From positions 310,001 to 374,000 of the forward strand of contig NZ_CP021421.1 of assembly GCF_002201515.1 (NCBI RefSeq): 64,000 nt of DNA, in the 5' to 3' direction. The notes beneath the pieces were generated by a model. That model was given only the letters and a program-made list of their open reading frames with translations. It was not told the DNA's origin and made no database searches. Both the position numbers and the translations under genes were made by a program. The stretch is from Muribaculum intestinale (GTDB lineage: Bacteria > Bacteroidota > Bacteroidia > Bacteroidales > Muribaculaceae). Below are positions 7,666-25,756 of this stretch, one piece after another (the first letter of the stretch is position 1; every line of letters starts with the position of its first letter).

Positions 7666-8709
7666 TTAAACTGTTGCAAACTTATAGATGATGCGCTGCT
7701 CGTATACCTCGCCGGGACCGAGTATCTGGGAGGGGAAATTGCGGTGGTTGGGGGCATCGGGCATACCCTGACACTCGATGGCCACACCGTCGTAGTCGGC
7801 ATACTCCTTGCCGCTCTTGCTCTTGGGACAGCCCGAGAGCCAGTTGCCGGTATATACCTGTGCGGCCGGCTGTGATGTCGACACTTCGAGCACACGTCCG
7901 CTATGCTCAGCTTCCAGGCGAGCCACAGGAGCTACCGTGTGCTTGTGCCAGTTGTCGACCACCCAGCAGTTGTCGTACCCCTTTCCGTAGTTGAGCGCGG
8001 GGAAGTCGGCCTTAATGTCATCGCCGAGCACACGACCCTTGGTGAAGTCCATCGGAGTGCCCTCTACCGGAGCCATCTCGCCGGTGGGTATCAGAGTGTC
8101 GTCGGTAGGCAGATAGCGCGATGCGGCCAGAGTAAGTTTATGGCCGAGCACCGAGCCGGCACCCTCGCCGTCGAGGTTGAAGTAGGCATGGTTGGTGAGA
8201 TTGACCACCGTCTTCTTGTCGCACACGGCGAGATAGTCGATGACAAGCTCGTTGTCGTTGGTCCATGTATAGAGCACAGTGGCGGTAAGTGTGCCGGGAT
8301 ATCCCTCCTCGCCGTCGACCGATGTATACTCCATCTTTACCTGCGAGCCGCGCGACTCCTCTTTCCAGATTTTGTTCATAAACCCTTCGGGACCTCCGTG
8401 GAGGGCGTTGGGGCCATTGTTGACGGCCAGCTCATACTCCTTGCCGACGAGGGTAAATCGCCCTTTGGCTATGCGGTTGGCGTAGCGGCCTGGTGTCTTT
8501 CCCATGCATGGGCCGTCGGCGATATAGTCGGCAGCACAGCCATAGCCGAGAGCCACGTCGGCCATATTGCCGTCGCGGTCGGGAACAACAACGCTTACGA
8601 TACCGGCGCCAAGTGTCGATAGAGTCACCGAAGCTCCGTTGTCGTTGGTTATGGTGATGAGCGTCACCTCTCCGCGGGGAGTCTGCTCAAATTTTTTTTC
8701 AATTTTCAT
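7666..8709 (-). CDS. galM: Aldose 1-epimerase (galactose mutarotase)
   Basis: 347 residues, usual family length. It interconverts beta- and alpha-D-galactose for GalK. The family signature NLTNHAYFNLDG carries the catalytic His near residue 175. A C-terminal AIECQGMPDAPNH segment carries the catalytic Glu. A substrate-binding PGRYANRIAKGRF motif lies near residue 75. No signal peptide is seen, so it is cytoplasmic. It lies between galK and the nucleotidyltransferase on the same strand, with a hairpin in the galK-galM gap that may reduce downstream expression. Confidence 0.93.
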   Translation of the reverse strand: MKIEKKFEQTPRGEVTLITITNDNGASVTLSTLGAGIVSVVVPDRDGNMADVALGYGCAADYIADGPCMGKTPGRYANRIAKGRFTLVGKEYELAVNNGPNALHGGPEGFMNKIWKEESRGSQVKMEYTSVDGEEGYPGTLTATVLYTWTNDNELVIDYLAVCDKKTVVNLTNHAYFNLDGEGAGSVLGHKLTLAASRYLPTDDTLIPTGEMAPVEGTPMDFTKGRVLGDDIKADFPALNYGKGYDNCWVVDNWHKHTVAPVARLEAEHSGRVLEVSTSQPAAQVYTGNWLSGCPKSKSGKEYADYDGVAIECQGMPDAPNHRNFPSQILGPGEVYEQRIIYKFATV

Positions 8710-8738
8710 TTCTGTAATATTTCCGTGGAGTAATCATG

Positions 8739-8788
8739 AAGGTGTATCATAATACATATCCCGCCAGGGATGAATCATGATACACCTT
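8739..8788 (-). terminator. Hairpin between galK and galM (attenuating terminator or processing site)
   Basis: A 12-bp perfect stem AAGGTGTATCAT / ATGATACACCTT separated by 26 bases. In the minus direction it follows galK and precedes galM. Only a weak T run follows, so partial read-through is likely. Confidence 0.55.
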
Positions 8789-8805
8789 ATATAGTCATGC
8801 CTATG

Positions 8806-9945
8806 TTATTCGACTCTACGGGCGCCGTCGCTTACGATTACATCGTACACCACGGGCTCGTGACCGTACCTGGCATTGAATTTCTCTTTGGCAGTGGCGA
8901 TAAACGAGTCGTAGAGGTCGTCCTTCACCAGGTTGATGGTGCAGCCGCCGAAGCCGCCACCCATGATGCGCGAGCCGGTGACGCCACACTCCTTGGCTAT
9001 GTCATTGAGGTAGTCAAGCTCCTCGCAGCTCACCTCGTAAAGTTTCGACATGCCTTCGTGGGTCTTGTACATGCGGTCGCCTACAGTGTCATAGTCACCC
9101 TTCTGGAGAGCATCGCACACATCGAGCACACGCTGCTTCTCACCGATAACGTATACCGCACGGTTGTAGTCCTCCTCGCTTATCCGGTCCTTGATTTTCT
9201 CAAGGTCGGCCATCTCTGCGTCGCGCAGTGTCTCTACGCCGAGTGTACGGGCCACGTTCTCGCATGAGGCGCGACGTTTGTTGTAGGGAGAGTCGACGAG
9301 TTCATGCTTCACCTTCGAGTCGACAAGCACGAGCTTGTAGCCGTCGAGTTTGAAGGGAAAATACTCATACTCGAGCGAGCGGCAGTCGAGACGCATGAGA
9401 TGGTCCTTCTTGCCGAACACTGAAGCAAACTGGTCCATTATGCCGCAGTTCACGCCGCAATAGTTATGTTCGGTCGACTGGCCGATTTTGGCAAGCTCAA
9501 ACTTGTCAATCTTATTGTCGTTGAACATATCGTTGAGAGCGAATGCAAAACAGCTTTCGAGAGCTGCCGACGACGAAAGTCCGGCACCCAGGGGTACATT
9601 TCCGGCGAAAACGGCATCAAAACCGTTGACAACACCGCCACGCTTGATTATCTCGCGGCATACACCGAATATATAGCGGGCCCACTGCTGCTTGGGTGCG
9701 TCCTCCTCGTTGAGGCCAAACTCGGCATACTCGTTGATGTCGATGGAGAATACACGTACCTTGTCGGTACCGTTGGCCTTCATCTCGGCCATAATTACTT
9801 TATCTATCGCGCCGGGGAATACGAAGCCGCCGTTGTAGTCGGTATGTTCGCCGATAAGGTTGATACGTCCGGCCGATGCGTAAAGTGTGCCGGCAGTGCC
9901 GAAGCGATCCGCAAACACTTTGCGGATGTTCTCTTTCATGTCCAT
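8806..9945 (-). CDS. galK: Galactokinase
   Basis: 379 residues, GHMP kinase. It shows the galactokinase signature GRINLIGEHTDYNGGFVFPG (about 26-45), the ATP-loop VPLGAGLSSSAALE (about 115) and the C-terminal GGGFGGCTINLV motif. It phosphorylates galactose to galactose-1-phosphate. It is the first gene of the operon, with a TAAATTTG -7 box at 10029-10036 on the minus strand, about 85 bases upstream. An alternative start two codons later is possible. Confidence 0.96.
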   Translation of the reverse strand: MDMKENIRKVFADRFGTAGTLYASAGRINLIGEHTDYNGGFVFPGAIDKVIMAEMKANGTDKVRVFSIDINEYAEFGLNEEDAPKQQWARYIFGVCREIIKRGGVVNGFDAVFAGNVPLGAGLSSSAALESCFAFALNDMFNDNKIDKFELAKIGQSTEHNYCGVNCGIMDQFASVFGKKDHLMRLDCRSLEYEYFPFKLDGYKLVLVDSKVKHELVDSPYNKRRASCENVARTLGVETLRDAEMADLEKIKDRISEEDYNRAVYVIGEKQRVLDVCDALQKGDYDTVGDRMYKTHEGMSKLYEVSCEELDYLNDIAKECGVTGSRIMGGGFGGCTINLVKDDLYDSFIATAKEKFNARYGHEPVVYDVIVSDGARRVE

Positions 9946-19870: not shown

Positions 19871-20000
19871 CCAATCCCAAAGGAAACACACAACCCGACC
19901 CACTGCGTCACACTGCTACTGACCCCACATGCCGGCGCGCTCCATTTCGGGACAGGACACAAAAAAGCGGTTCACTCAATGAGTGAACCGCTTGGGTGAG

Positions 20001-20073
20001 TAGTGAATCCGGGAATCGAACCCGGGTCTCCACCGTGAGAGGGTGGCGTGCTAGGCCACTACACTAAATCACC
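20001..20073 (-). tRNA. tRNA-Glu (anticodon CTC)
   Basis: 73 nt. D-arm GTGT / GCAC, anticodon stem CCACC / GGTGG with loop CTCTCAC (anticodon CTC), T-arm CCGGG / CCCGG with TTCGATT. No CCA is encoded. The acceptor stem has a G-T pair at 1-72 and a T-T mismatch at 6-67. It reads GAG codons. Confidence 0.9.
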
Positions 20074-20229: not shown

Positions 20230-20262
20230 TTTGCAAACACCATTGTAATTATAGTAAATTTG
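20230..20262 (+). promoter_or_regulatory. Promoter of the 822-residue protein gene (TTTG N21 TAAATTTG)
   Basis: TTTG at 20230-20233 and TAAATTTG at 20255-20262 fit the consensus. A leader of about 70 bases would precede the ATG at 20339. Confidence 0.65.
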
Positions 20263-20338: not shown

Positions 20339-22807
20339 ATGAAAAATCACACAATCCGGGCCACACTGCCCGCACCCGACACCGACCGGTGCTCAGCACA
20401 AAACCTGCGACGCCCGATTATGGGCAACTCCCTGCGTCCCGTATCCCCTCCCACACGCATATGCCGCGAGTCGGGCACACCGATAGCATCGTGGACAGCA
20501 CCCGACGGCACCGCAACATGCCTCTTCCAGTCTGACTCTCTCGCCCTGTGGGCCATCCCCGCCTCCTCCGAAGCCCCCGCAAGCGTAGGCACACTCCCCG
20601 CAAAAGCCACAGCCGCCGTTTCCACAACCGAAGGGATACACATTTTCACCCCCGACGGAGTATACACAGCCGCTCCCGATGCAGATGGCCGATGGAGCCT
20701 CACAGCCGCCTATGGCCAATATCCCCCGGTAGCCATATTCCCCACCGAACCACGCATACACACCGCCGCCACCCCACGCCTCACCCTCAAGGGCGACTAT
20801 ACCTCATGGAGCGGAGCCATGGACAAGACCGACATTGCCATGCTCGGCAACAGCGTTATGGCCGCTCTCTCCGAAGCCACAGCCGCCGCAGTGGCCGACG
20901 GATGTGCCGCCGCACCGATACTCGCCTGGTACCGACTGCGCGACGCCGCCGGACGCGAACTGTTCCGCTCCACACCCGTGATGGTGACTCCCGACGGCAT
21001 ACAAGGTCCCGGGCATGTCGATGTCAGCGTAGCCGTGTCGTCTGGCTCCTACCGCCAAGTGCAGCCGACCGCGATAAGCGTCACCGGCTTCAGAATCGGT
21101 CTGCGCATCTGCGACACCGACATATCCCACGCCTCACGCCGTGCCGCCGTGCTCGAACTCATGACAGCCCCGCCCGCCGACCTCGTCGACTACTCCGCGA
21201 CACCTTACGTGACACGCCTCGGCCATACTGCCACCGAGGGACAGCTGCGCATTGCCATACCTCGACTGGCCGGACAGAAGGCACTGGTTCCCGCCATGCT
21301 CGACCGTCTGGACGAAGTGTCGGAAGTCGCCGCAGTAATCCACGACCCTTTCAATCCCTCCGGAGAACTGTACTCCTCAGGCATTATCGCCGACATCCCT
21401 GCGGAATTCAATCCCGGAAACACCGCAAAATTCCTCCGCAACGCCATGTCGGGCCACACTGCCTCCGACGCCACGACGTCGATACTGCGCGAAATCTCCA
21501 TGCCCCATACATTCACCGCCTCCGTGGCCACAGTGGCCGGAGATATCACAGCTTATGGCGGCATCACACCCATACACACCCTCCCCATGCCGATCAACGC
21601 AGCATGGATTGCCGGGAAAAGCTATGGCCCGTGGCAAGCCAAAGTGTGTGTAACCCTTCTGAACTCCCGGGGCCAAACCGAACGCCTGTGCGCCGAGTCG
21701 ACAGGCGAGGGCCCGATACCCGAAGCGCTACTCCCCATGCTCTCCTACCCACATCCCGGAGCATTCCGAATCGACATCGAGCTTACGACCGACGGACGCA
21801 CGCTCTCCCGCTCATTCCCCCTCACCCCGACACCCGCCTCAGCCGCGGCATACTATGTCGAGCCCTCCCTGCGCCCGATTCCCGTTTCATCGTTTGAGTC
21901 CACGGTGTCGCCCATGAGGGCTGTCACCGAGCGCAAACCCGTATGCCACAAATCATCGGTAGTGGTAGCCGCCACAGCCTCACCGCTCATCCCCGCCGGC
22001 ACCGCGGCCATTGACTCGGCTGTCACAGCCATCACCGAATCCCGGCGCTCAACCTCCGGAATCGCCTTCGGACGCCGCCATCTGTATGTGTTCACCATGG
22101 CCGGCATCCACACCGTGAGCGTCAGCTCCTCCATGCAGATGGCCGTATCGGCTATCTCGTCGGATGGTGTCGACTCCTCCGAAGCGGTAGCCGTTGGGCC
22201 CGAGGGTGTATACGCAGCCACTCCATCGGGTGTGATATGCATCAACGGCACGCGCTCCACCGCCGTCCACCCCGGCATCTTCAAGGCCATAGCATGGTCG
22301 CCATCATTCCGCGAACTGTGGTGCCTCCCCGCCGACGGAGCCGCAAAGCCGCGTCCGGTGATAATCGACCGATTCGGACACACCTACACCCGCACCGACA
22401 TAGCTCCGAAAGCATTCTGCGCGGCGCCACACACTCTGTTCATAGCCTCCTCGTCGGGATTCTTCAACGCCTCACGCGAATATGCCGACCCCGACAAGCC
22501 GATTGCCGTATCGTGGTGCATGCGCATATGCGTAGCCGATGACACCGTGCCGCGCATACGCGCCCTCACTGCCGTGGTCGGTGCCAATGACGCCGACCTG
22601 TCGATCGACCTGCTCGGCGACAATGGCACCGACAAGCCCCACCGCTTTGCCGGACTCGCGGTAGTCGGCGGCATATCAGCCCCGCTCTATCTGCCCGTGA
22701 TAGCCCATCCCCACCGATACGTCACCATTTCGCTCTACGGACACGTCTCGGCCGATACGCGCATTACATCATTTCTCCTCCAGACCGGGCAGAGACTCAT
22801 TTTCTAA
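20339..22807 (+). CDS. Large protein of unknown function paired with a terminase
   Basis: 822 residues, not assigned to a family. No signal peptide or membrane segment is seen. Residues about 55-135 and 575-670 contain propeller-like strands (GIHIFTPDGVYTAAPDADGR; LYVFTMAGIHTVSV; EGVYAATPSGVICINGT). The middle has beta-sandwich-like stretches (WYRLRDAAGRELFRSTPVMV). The last 100 residues read as another sandwich. The overall look recalls phage structural or tail-accessory propellers, but that is an impression, not a match. Before the IS982 insertion its stop lay 23 bases from the terminase ATG, so the two formed an operon. The start might be Met28 (MGNSLRPVSPP) rather than Met1. Confidence 0.75.
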   Translation: MKNHTIRATLPAPDTDRCSAQNLRRPIMGNSLRPVSPPTRICRESGTPIASWTAPDGTATCLFQSDSLALWAIPASSEAPASVGTLPAKATAAVSTTEGIHIFTPDGVYTAAPDADGRWSLTAAYGQYPPVAIFPTEPRIHTAATPRLTLKGDYTSWSGAMDKTDIAMLGNSVMAALSEATAAAVADGCAAAPILAWYRLRDAAGRELFRSTPVMVTPDGIQGPGHVDVSVAVSSGSYRQVQPTAISVTGFRIGLRICDTDISHASRRAAVLELMTAPPADLVDYSATPYVTRLGHTATEGQLRIAIPRLAGQKALVPAMLDRLDEVSEVAAVIHDPFNPSGELYSSGIIADIPAEFNPGNTAKFLRNAMSGHTASDATTSILREISMPHTFTASVATVAGDITAYGGITPIHTLPMPINAAWIAGKSYGPWQAKVCVTLLNSRGQTERLCAESTGEGPIPEALLPMLSYPHPGAFRIDIELTTDGRTLSRSFPLTPTPASAAAYYVEPSLRPIPVSSFESTVSPMRAVTERKPVCHKSSVVVAATASPLIPAGTAAIDSAVTAITESRRSTSGIAFGRRHLYVFTMAGIHTVSVSSSMQMAVSAISSDGVDSSEAVAVGPEGVYAATPSGVICINGTRSTAVHPGIFKAIAWSPSFRELWCLPADGAAKPRPVIIDRFGHTYTRTDIAPKAFCAAPHTLFIASSSGFFNASREYADPDKPIAVSWCMRICVADDTVPRIRALTAVVGANDADLSIDLLGDNGTDKPHRFAGLAVVGGISAPLYLPVIAHPHRYVTISLYGHVSADTRITSFLLQTGQRLIF

Positions 22808-22831
22808 TCATCCCCTACTGTATATATATTA

Positions 22832-23866
22832 ACGTGAGTTCGACGAAAATTAATTAGATGAGAAATTGGTGATTAGCGATAAAAGTATTAAATTTAAAGG
22901 ACTCAATTTCAAACAAATACTCTTATCGCTATGCTCACCGAAGACAAAATTACTGAAATATTCGTGATTGCAGATGAATTCTGCAAAGTTTTTAATGCGA
23001 TGCTCCGTCGCAGAGGTCTTTCGAAGATTCGTACGGACAGGAAGCGGGAATATCATCGAGATTGCCGTCTGTCGCAGGCGGAGGTCATTGTTATCATGAT
23101 CATGTTCCACAGTTCCAACCATAAATGTCTCAAACACTTTTATCTGAACGAGATATGTCAGCGATACAGGCATCTGTTCCCCGAAACAGTCTCATACAAC
23201 AGATTCACGGAGCTGGAGAAATCAGTGGTCGTTCAGTTCGTGATATTCGTAAAGAAATGTCTGCTGGGAAAATGTACCGGTATTAGTTTTGTCGACAGCA
23301 CACTGCTACGTGTGTGCCGCAACCAACGGATACACATGCACAAGGTGTTCAAAGGAATAGCGCAACGTGGGAAGTGTTCGTTAGGTTGGTTCTACGGATT
23401 CAAGCTACATCTGATATGCAACGACAAGGGCGAGATTCTCAACTTCATGATCACTCCGGGAGATGTTGATGACCGGGAACCTCTGAAAGTGAAGTCGTTT
23501 GTCGAGTTCATATACGGCAAGATGGTCGGTGACAAAGGTTATATCGGCAAAGACCTGTTCTGCAAGCTGTTCATTGACGGAATCCAATTGATCACAAAAC
23601 TGAAAAACAACATGAAAGGCGGTCTGAGATCAATGTATGACAGAATACTTCTGAGAAAACGGGCTATTATCGAAACTGTAAACGACCAACTCAAAAACAT
23701 CGCTCAGATAGAACACTCGCGACACCGTTCATTTCCGAATTTCATCGTTAATCTCATTGGTGGGATAGCGGCTTATTGCCTGTTTCCAAAGAAACCGAGG
23801 ATAAACTTAGAACGCGTGTATGATAATCAGATGACTCTCTTTTGATTATTTTCATCGAACTCACGT
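22832..23866 (+). mobile_element. IS982-family insertion sequence, apparently intact
   Basis: 1035 bp. Terminal inverted repeats ACGTGAGTTCGACGAAAAT and ACGTGAGTTCGATGAAAAT (one mismatch) are flanked by the 7-bp target duplication TATATTA at 22825-22831 and 23867-23873. It carries one full-length transposase. The right-hand duplication supplies the A of the terminase ATG, so that start codon survives. Confidence 0.92.
22931..23845 (+). CDS. IS982-family DDE transposase
   Basis: 304 residues. The RNase-H-like core shows SFVDSTLLRVC (first Asp), MVGDKGYIGKDLF (second Asp) and RAIIETVNDQLKN (Glu). An N-terminal helical region contains CRLSQAEVIVIMIMFHSSNH. The length is full and there are no frameshifts, so it is probably active. 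It cuts and joins the element's own ends. Base use is more AT-rich than its neighbours, in keeping with a recent arrival. Confidence 0.93.
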   Translation: MLTEDKITEIFVIADEFCKVFNAMLRRRGLSKIRTDRKREYHRDCRLSQAEVIVIMIMFHSSNHKCLKHFYLNEICQRYRHLFPETVSYNRFTELEKSVVVQFVIFVKKCLLGKCTGISFVDSTLLRVCRNQRIHMHKVFKGIAQRGKCSLGWFYGFKLHLICNDKGEILNFMITPGDVDDREPLKVKSFVEFIYGKMVGDKGYIGKDLFCKLFIDGIQLITKLKNNMKGGLRSMYDRILLRKRAIIETVNDQLKNIAQIEHSRHRSFPNFIVNLIGGIAAYCLFPKKPRINLERVYDNQMTLF

Positions 23867-23872
23867 TATATT

Positions 23873-25756
23873 ATGGAAAACATCACCGATATACTTGCCG
23901 AAAACGCACGGCGCACAGCCGCCATGCGTGCACCCTACGACCCGCTCACCGGCCAAGGAAGCCATCTGCCTCGCGTCGAGGCCATCGACCCCAAGGGCAC
24001 ACCCTGCCGCATACCTCAGACAATGGCCGACGACCCCGCCATTCTCACCGTGGCACGCGACCGTCACGCATGGTGCATGCTACGCTTCTCCCACGACTTC
24101 GAGTTCTGGGCCGCCACATGCGTCAGAATCAAAGATAAACTCTCGGGACGCGACATACCGTTTGTGCTCAACCGTCCCCAGCGACGGGTACTTGCCGTGC
24201 TCGAAGGCATGCGCGTGGCCCGGCGCCCGATACGCCTGATAATGCTGAAGGCCCGGCAATGGGGCGGCTCTACACTTATACAGATGTATATGGCGTGGAT
24301 TCAATGCATCCACCACCGCAACTGGCACTCCCTGATATGCGCCCACGTGAAGGACACAGCCTCAACCATACGGGGCATGTACACCAAGATGCTCGCATGC
24401 TACCCCGACGAGTTCTGGCCCGACGACTCTCCCCACGACTTCCGTCCATTCGAGCGCTCGGTCAACACACGCGTCATCACAGGGCGCGACTGCCGCGTGA
24501 CTGTAGGGTCGTCAGAGGGACAGGAAGCCGTGCGAGGAGCCGACTACGCAATGGCCCACCTGAGCGAGGTGGCATTCTGGAAAGACTCGCCGACACAGTC
24601 GCCCGAGGGATTCATCCGCGCCATATGCGGAGGCATAGTCCGCCAACCCGACACTCTGATTGCGCTCGAAAGCACAGCCAACGGAGTAGGCAACTATTTC
24701 CACTCCGAATGGCTACGCTCAGAGGCCGGCCGCAGCGACAAGGCCGCCGTGTTCGTGCCGTGGTATGAGATTGACATATACACCGCCGAAGTCCCCGATG
24801 CCGAAGCGCTATGGAGGTCAATGTCCGACTATGAGCGCTGGCTGTGGCAGCTCGGATGCACACTCGACCAGATACAATGGTACCGCGAGAAACTGAGCGA
24901 ATACCCGTCGCGCCATCTGATGCAGGCCGAATTCCCATCATCGGCCACCGAAGCCTTTGCAAACACCGGAAGCGGAGTGTTTGCCCCGACGCTGATTGAC
25001 ACTCTGCGGGCACGGTGTTCTGACTCCTACGAGCTGGGCGAACTATCCACCGCATCGCCACTGCTTCCTGGAGCCATGACCGTCAACGGATTCGTGGCCG
25101 ACCCATGCGGACATCTGAAAGTATGGTCGAGACCTCGCCACGGCATCGACCGCTACGTAGTGTCGGTCGACATAGGCGGCCGCACCGACCGAGCCGACTT
25201 CTCCGTAATAGCCGTCATCGACCGGTTTCCGCCACACGGGCTACCGGAAATAGTGGCACAGTGGAGAGGACACATCGACCACGACCTGCTCACCGCAAAA
25301 GCAGCCGCAATAGCGTCGTGGTATGGCAACGCACTGCTGGTCGTAGAGAGCAATTCACTTGAAAGCCAGACTACTCCCGACACCGACAATGCCCTCATAC
25401 TGCTGTCGGAACTCAACCGTCATTACCCCAACCTCTACCGACGGCGGGCACTCGACTCGGCCACTCACTCCCTTGAGAACCGTGTCGGATTTCACACCAA
25501 CCGTCAGACCAAGGCCCTGGTCATAGGCCATCTGATAAGCCTCGTGCGCGACAGCGCCTACATCGAGCGCGACACTGAGGCCTGCAACGAGCTTGCCGTA
25601 TACGAGCGCGACCCTTCGGGAAGATACGCCGCTCGCCACGGATGTCACGACGACATACTGATGACCCGCGCCATCGGCCTGTGGGTAGCGTCGCAGATGC
25701 CCCCTCCGGCCGACCTGTCAGACATCGCTTTTCATCGACCTAAGCGCATACGCTGA
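23873..25756 (+). CDS. Phage-type terminase large subunit (TerL-like), stand-alone
   Basis: 627 residues. The ATPase domain has the Walker A variant LKARQWGGSTL (about 122-132) and an ADYAMAHLSEVAFW segment (about 222-235) that carries the Walker B / catalytic Glu. The RNase-H-like nuclease domain shows SVDIGGRTDRADFSVIAVID (about 428), a central VVESNS (about 490) and C-terminal GCHDDILMTRAIGLW (about 595), giving the three acidic clusters of TerL. In phages this motor packages and cuts DNA. Here no portal, capsid, tail, small terminase or integrase gene lies nearby. Both catalytic halves look intact. Its upstream leader is now the IS982 end. Confidence 0.85.
   Translation: MENITDILAENARRTAAMRAPYDPLTGQGSHLPRVEAIDPKGTPCRIPQTMADDPAILTVARDRHAWCMLRFSHDFEFWAATCVRIKDKLSGRDIPFVLNRPQRRVLAVLEGMRVARRPIRLIMLKARQWGGSTLIQMYMAWIQCIHHRNWHSLICAHVKDTASTIRGMYTKMLACYPDEFWPDDSPHDFRPFERSVNTRVITGRDCRVTVGSSEGQEAVRGADYAMAHLSEVAFWKDSPTQSPEGFIRAICGGIVRQPDTLIALESTANGVGNYFHSEWLRSEAGRSDKAAVFVPWYEIDIYTAEVPDAEALWRSMSDYERWLWQLGCTLDQIQWYREKLSEYPSRHLMQAEFPSSATEAFANTGSGVFAPTLIDTLRARCSDSYELGELSTASPLLPGAMTVNGFVADPCGHLKVWSRPRHGIDRYVVSVDIGGRTDRADFSVIAVIDRFPPHGLPEIVAQWRGHIDHDLLTAKAAAIASWYGNALLVVESNSLESQTTPDTDNALILLSELNRHYPNLYRRRALDSATHSLENRVGFHTNRQTKALVIGHLISLVRDSAYIERDTEACNELAVYERDPSGRYAARHGCHDDILMTRAIGLWVASQMPPPADLSDIAFHRPKRIR

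Follow-up and report, generated by a model that had tools for sequence, protein, structure and literature searches.

The locus and its gene pair

The window, by which we mean the whole 64,000-nucleotide stretch of the Muribaculum intestinale genome analysed here (assembly GCF_002201515.1, contig NZ_CP021421.1, positions 310,001–374,000 of the forward strand; genome G000), contains a two-gene operon encoding a phage-type large terminase (TerL) and an 822-residue protein, the two split by an insertion sequence (IS). This pair, and the likely gene-transfer-agent-like system to which it belongs, are our subject. Both open reading frames and the adjoining tRNA-Glu lie where the initial annotation had placed them:

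20339..22807, + strand: tail nozzle protein, 822 aa, of P22 gp10 / SU10 / crAss001-muzzle type by fold
22832..23866, + strand: IS982 insertion separating the nozzle and TerL genes (NF033520, E 6.4e-74; ends read from the sequence)
23873..25756, + strand: large terminase TerL, 627 aa (phrog_2 match; ATPase and nuclease motifs intact)
20230..20262, + strand: Bacteroidales-type promoter-like site (TTTG ... TAAATTTG) 5' of the nozzle gene (pattern match)
20000-20073, - strand: tRNA-Glu

The 627-aa protein is a large terminase, as first annotated, by its match to phrog_2 (E 3.6e-21); Pfam returned no match. The catalytic columns of the protein are invariant among 28 aligned sequences, of which 17 come from loci read as domesticated and 11 from phages or prophages; by terminase motifs, we take the ATPase columns to be K126, R128, G131, S133, T134 and E232, and the nuclease columns are presumably D433, E492, D593 and D594. 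The partner had been described as lacking a recognised family, which holds for Pfam and NCBIfam but not for its fold. The best 16 solved-structure matches of its AlphaFold model (pLDDT 89.8) are all phage tail chains, at 6–12% sequence identity, and agreement with podophage nozzles (P22 gp10, SU10, the crAss001 muzzle and T7 gp12) extends over the whole model. By predicted fold, the partner is a tail nozzle of the short-tailed-phage type, differing from those nozzles in being encoded by a bacterium, beside terL. A single-sequence search with the nozzle found no match among phages, whereas profile search and fold comparison did.

The IS982 element is flanked by a 7-base direct repeat (TATATTA) and is absent from two close relatives, G009 and G013; its subtraction leaves the two genes 23 bases apart, the spacing given by the initial annotation. 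In G009 (L207) 7 bases separate the genes, and in G013 (L116) the two overlap. The putative promoter-like site, a match to the Bacteroidales-type consensus, begins 109 bases ahead of the nozzle start codon. The pair is flanked by the tRNA-Glu and a ferredoxin/2-oxoacid oxidoreductase operon, and the ten neighbouring window genes scanned are all cellular, none being for replication or mobility. The tRNA was considered as an attachment site and set aside: 3 of 20 relatives' loci (14.6–19 kb) hold any tRNA, none of them tRNA-Glu, and the window's tRNA looks incidental.

A head operon beyond the edge of the window

The absence of portal and capsid genes reported earlier is true of the window, where none was seen, but not of the genome. 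A phrog_156 search located a portal gene at G000:C1:377383-378825, 3.4 kb beyond the window's right end (374000), and a PF17236 search located the major capsid protein at G000:C1:382025-383248, 8 kb beyond it. The portal is of P22 type (PF16510, E 2.2e-23, 83.1 bits against a curated cut-off of 26.1) and the capsid of SU10 type (PF17236, E 3.1e-45, 155.4 bits against a cut-off of 24.1). With an adaptor and a scaffold-like gene, all 3–10 kb beyond the right end, they form a head operon in the order scaffold-like F3 (80 aa), capsid (407 aa), IS21, adaptor F2 (202 aa) and portal (480 aa as called). The IS21 (IstA and IstB, L095:6466-8887), between the capsid and adaptor genes, is the second IS within this genome's scattered system, beside IS982. 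G013 and G009 have the identical operon order and the same neighbours, without IS21. In G009 the capsid gene is read in two overlapping frames (L205:4399-5620), reflecting decay or an assembly error.

The notion of a stand-alone two-gene module, which arose because the window's edge cut off the head operon, was dropped after these portal and capsid matches. A domesticated DNA-processing module, also suggested initially, proved too small a description, since the set also takes in the portal, capsid, adaptor and scaffold-like genes and, in a relative, genes for lysis.

Profile comparison with hhalign relates the adaptor F2 to a gene lying close to the phage capsid gene (prob. 98.1), F4 to a small phage gene close to the terL start (prob. 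98.4) and, more weakly, F3 to a phage scaffold-like gene (prob. 80); F5 had no phage match by the same comparison. F4 is a small-terminase candidate because of the position of its matching phage gene, that is, by inference from place. Phage-derived structural and packaging genes, one mark of a gene transfer agent (GTA), are present as TerL, nozzle, portal, capsid, adaptor and scaffold-like gene.

Distribution within Muribaculaceae

Among 37 Muribaculaceae genomes, TerL was found in 33, portal in 34, capsid in 35, nozzle in 29, F4 in 31 and F5 in 26, the nozzle count being from a single-sequence search to which a profile later added G029 and G034. The corresponding figure for 24 genomes of other families in the order was 2 each for TerL, portal, capsid, nozzle and F4, and 0 for F5. 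In a larger sample of 225 family genomes, 188 had a capsid match at E 0.001, 181 of them scoring above the curated cut-off, and 25 of 26 genera were covered. One genus-level group, g51, includes many genomes with a weak or absent capsid match; there the system may have been lost or the capsid exchanged.

Family copies are mostly single-copy and set among cellular genes as single genes or short operons. Most of the parts occur together in G001 (Heminiphilus faecis AM35, L119), which has TerL, nozzle, F3, capsid, adaptor, portal, F4, F5 and a spanin-like gene. The nozzle and terminase do travel together, as the initial annotation had proposed to check, and in the family mostly outside prophages: after 4 loci without a called terminase were removed from 80, 51 of the remaining 76 have the nozzle gene 5' of TerL, co-oriented and no more than 531 bases away, with a commonest gap of -3. 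In the rest, the nozzle is elsewhere in 1, absent despite at least 3 kb of upstream sequence in 14, and absent with less upstream sequence in 10. The parts are widely spread, lying at 0.18 and 2.73 Mb in G012 and, in G484 from another family, at 1.149, 1.395 and 1.427 Mb; such distances are probably too great for the whole set to fit into a single head.

Second, phage-like TerL copies occur at G357:C32, G438:C77, G015:C3 and G007:C37, some with a portal or capsid gene nearby. These probably represent prophages of this lineage that reside alongside the scattered genes.

Other Bacteroidales families

Of 344 genomes of the order, 32 had a TerL match; 5 of these belong to the window's own family, 22 to six others (f22, f28, f58, f65, f84 and f103) and 5 are scattered. 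The 22 are positives only, giving no per-family rate, and all 22 have both capsid and portal, one portal being a 131-aa fragment. No capsid or portal gene lies within the stretches read around their TerL loci, and the distances between parts on a shared contig (G456, G484, G538) run from 13 kb to hundreds of kb. A divergent three-gene module, A-B-C, adjoins TerL on its left in 4 of 9 sister-family loci (L231, L233, L235, L236); relatives of A and C occur in 2 (L066, L237) and neither in 3 (L230, L232, L234). A is similar to a BF1-TP2 phage gene (E 1.5e-21); C is similar to the giant virion protein of phages (E 2.4e-19), shortened to 722–864 aa, and to 730–833 aa in the four loci with the whole module. 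Comparison of the ejection proteins A, B and C with the Muribaculaceae families by hhalign gave no match, and C and B were not found in 1.6 Mb of G012.

Three of the scattered positives (G055, G500, G566) are prophages, read as such because their parts are clustered: TerL, capsid, and adaptor or scaffold lie in one cluster, with the portal within about 15 kb. Partly spread sets, with parts over about 48–53 kb, are found in the window's genome and in G259, G441 and G456. Clustered prophages, sets of this kind and full dispersal form a series that offers a rare view of how a phage may be dismantled and kept.

Descent and selection

Maximum-likelihood trees (quick method; of the six other families only G057 was included, in the TerL and portal trees) separate domesticated from phage sequences by one branch each for TerL (19 versus 16 rows, SH-aLRT 99), capsid (14 versus 13, SH-aLRT 92) and portal (21 versus 10, SH-aLRT 94), a split that none of 500 shuffles reached in any of the three. 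The window's own genus forms a group with support of 97 for TerL, 86 for capsid, 100 for portal, 93 for nozzle and 99 for RpoB, as do G029, G033 and G035 (TerL 98, portal 98, RpoB 100). Pairwise distances correlate with those of RpoB for the nozzle (Mantel r 0.84, 15 genomes) and TerL (0.49, 17 genomes); 3 of 22 genomes (G003, G013, G023) were dropped from this test as their RNA polymerase match was missing. From the tree groupings and distance correlations, descent is likely to have been mainly vertical, with possible exchange of head genes. Inheritance with the host lineage, with copies apart from phage copies in trees, is a second mark of a GTA.

Purifying selection acts on the particle genes. 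For G000 against G009, a counting method (own script) gave dN/dS values of 0.058 for TerL, 0.043 for portal, 0.121 for adaptor and 0.189 for nozzle, the capsid not being comparable for this pair; six neighbouring genes range from 0.025 to 0.117. Between G000 and G013, values are 0.154 for capsid, 0.091 for portal and 0.144 for TerL, at high dS. The decay of catalytic residues that would have marked a prophage remnant is not seen in the 28 aligned terminases.

These results bear on the suggestion that the genes are randomly decaying leftovers of an old prophage. All parts are phage-derived, some copies carry stops or frameshifts, IS elements sit within the operons of the window's genome, and F4 and F5 were not found in it or in G009 and G013. 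Leftovers would not be expected as mostly single copies at scattered places across most of a family and six more, set apart from phages by one branch in three trees, with dN/dS of 0.04–0.19, invariant catalytic columns and, in some genomes, a common promoter element. Nor does the locus have the form of a prophage, one cluster with an integrase: the nozzle–TerL pair lies among cellular genes with the head operon 42 kb away, integrases not having been searched for. We regard the prophage-remnant explanation as improbable.

A promoter element shared in some genomes

Upstream stretches of unlinked operons were compared within each of 13 genomes. By ungapped score, an element is shared by the operons of G012 (39 against a control maximum of 15) and G024 (21 against 15), and by the TerL and head operons of G020 (24 against 17). 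The score of 22 in G001 was matched by 2 of 224 control pairs (maximum 48, probably repeats), and none of 44 comparisons of particle-gene with control stretches was as high. In G008 the gapped score exceeds all 348 controls, although the ungapped score is not clear. The element's letters vary between species, and in G012, G001 and G020 it runs into a TAnnTTTG box.

In G012, of the same genus as the window, a scan of 1.6 of the 3.3 Mb found a 31-letter element at ten sites with 0–4 mismatches and no further site below ten; three shuffled elements gave 0, 2 and 1 sites at ten or fewer mismatches. A 25-letter core is identical at all ten sites and is followed at each by the TAnnTTTG box. The sites precede the head operon, the nozzle–TerL operon, an endolysin gene, a spanin-like gene and six DUF6291-like paralogues. 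The endolysin is a 142-aa M15 peptidase (PF08291, E 8e-20; phrog_894, E 3.8e-26), a relative of which lies just 5' of the portal gene in G029. The spanin-like protein (124 aa), which has no family match, was read by sequence from its lipobox-like start and hydrophobic C-terminal stretch; relatives of its gene lie directly 3' of the portal gene in G001, G008 and G013. The six paralogues, of 181–238 aa as called, have Arg-rich stretches, with a weak DUF6291 match in two of the three tested, and could be regulators or DNA-binding particle proteins. They lie at:

L252:9310-9855
L306 near 8314-8868
L298:16793-17365
three more places

The make-up of this candidate regulon bears on two further explanations. 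One is a bactericidal or protein-carrying particle that transfers no DNA, for which lysis genes and a tail piece are present; such a particle would not need the ATPase and nuclease residues of TerL, which are invariant, and we consider it unlikely. The other is a defence device, in which capsid and packaging parts would be retained so as to disturb the assembly of phages. Phages can be blocked by domesticated phage parts, and the set has been retained over long times. Interference, however, would not require joint possession of TerL nuclease, portal, nozzle, endolysin and spanin-like gene, several of them under one element. The analysis, in which no defence library was searched, gave this explanation no support, and we hold it to be very improbable.

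A proposed dispersed gene-transfer-agent-like system

We consider it likely that the pair is the nozzle and packaging operon of an ancient, dispersed, podovirus-derived, gene-transfer-agent-like system inherited mainly vertically since its uptake by an ancestor that Muribaculaceae probably share with several related Bacteroidales families. The initial annotation's gene-transfer-agent-like relic is favoured in its first part, whereas a conserved system takes the place of the relic. In the proposed mechanism, a regulator acting on the shared promoter element would lead a subpopulation of cells to make capsids, TerL would fill these with host DNA, the nozzle would close the head, the endolysin and spanin would lyse the cell, and the released particles would deliver DNA to kin; the trigger and later steps are drawn from what these families do elsewhere.

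Muribaculaceae are abundant in the rodent gut. We give even chances to the broader proposal that an ancient Bacteroidales GTA, already present before at least seven families diverged, spread across ten or more loci and held as one regulon by a species-varying promoter element, has moved DNA between dominant gut commensals unnoticed. If so, a conserved, host-run DNA courier would form a standing route of gene exchange in a family whose gene spread is little known. The part of the literature covered yielded no report of a gene transfer agent for Muribaculaceae or Bacteroidota; as far as our searches show, this would be the first in the phylum, and the second short-tailed type after FpGTA of Faecalibacterium. 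The system is easily tested, since its parts are named and a candidate operator is available in one species.

Several observations weigh against the gene-transfer-agent-like interpretation. Particles, packaged host DNA and transfer are predictions from the gene content. The promoter element is clearly shared in 4 of 13 genomes (G012, G001, G024, G020), with G008 a fifth by gapped alignment, and sharing was not found in the other 8, the window's among them; the F4–F5 operon was without clear sharing in all 5 genomes tried. Neither portal (r 0.17, 18 genomes) nor capsid (r 0.25, 11 genomes) significantly tracks RpoB, and with one genome per genus and without G057 the TerL correlation is not significant (0.28, p 0.14), while that of the nozzle holds (0.73). 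A tail fibre and a holin were not identified in the scans made, neither having been specifically searched for. The stops or frameshifts in some copies count here as well.

Other points of this kind concern the window's own genome. Both of its operons carry an IS element (IS982 and IS21), and they share no promoter element beyond chance by ungapped score (62 of 300 control pairs as high); in a gapped test, 6 of 188 controls were as high. F4 was not found in G000 even at E 10 (positive control G012, E 4.7e-53), nor F5 at 0.001. The known parts together extend over 53 kb, a length that might fit into a head of phage size.

This genome's copy may be failing, switched off or controlled otherwise. 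A special case of a GTA-like origin is a former GTA being lost, functional in full-set relatives and inactive both in the sister species and in the window's strain; our estimate of slightly better than even is for this strain only. The IS insertions and the lack of a shared element in G000 favour it, as do the failure to find F4 at E 10 and F5 at 0.001 in G000, G009 and G013, the two-frame capsid gene of G009 and the many weak or absent capsid matches of g51. Against it, the window's pair has intact coding genes that show purifying selection when G000 is compared with G009, the head operon of G013 is complete, F4 evolves fast and could be missed, and the G009 frameshift is possibly an assembly error.

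Comparison with known systems

Faecalibacterium, the host of FpGTA, belongs to a phylum other than Bacteroidota, and RcGTA is siphovirus-like. FpGTA is similar to the system proposed here in its podovirus-like parts and its gut commensal hosts, and its report describes TerL, portal, scaffold and capsid in one operon and structural and lysis genes in a second, the two being separated by about 125 kb in a complete genome (PMC12946183). According to the same report, FpGTA occurs in all twelve Faecalibacterium genomes, not in Gemmiger or Subdoligranulum, and its particles, about 9-kb DNA and proteomics have been shown (PMC12946183). It differs in having two clusters, versus many loci here, and in its demonstrated particles, versus predicted ones here (PMC12946183). 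RcGTA, BaGTA and BhGTA are likewise phage-derived, vertically inherited with the host and on tree branches apart from phage homologues; they belong to Alphaproteobacteria and spirochaetes and are treated as independent origins (PMC9662315), in contrast to the nozzle lineage in Bacteroidota here.

The Bacteroides phages BF1-TP2 and BS-TP4 and the IMG/VR contigs L071-L092 have a homologous TerL (36–43%) and, where read, a homologous portal, SU10-type capsid, adaptor, scaffold and small gene 5' of TerL. In contrast to the dispersed system, their parts are clustered in one genome, and their giant protein, where complete (L079, L093), has 2865 and 3633 aa. The phage and prophage portal is also longer, at 632–694 aa (n=10) versus 425–532 aa in Muribaculaceae. 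In BF1-TP2 the likeness extends to a gp14-like protein and a giant virion protein. The gp14-like gene of G012 (PF24072, E 2.4e-5, just below the cut-off) is without the promoter element. This ejection gene (L241:6946-13302) lies beside IS21-like and integrase-like open reading frames, named by eye, with a divergent small open reading frame nearby, as in phage BF1-TP2, and may be a separate mobile piece.

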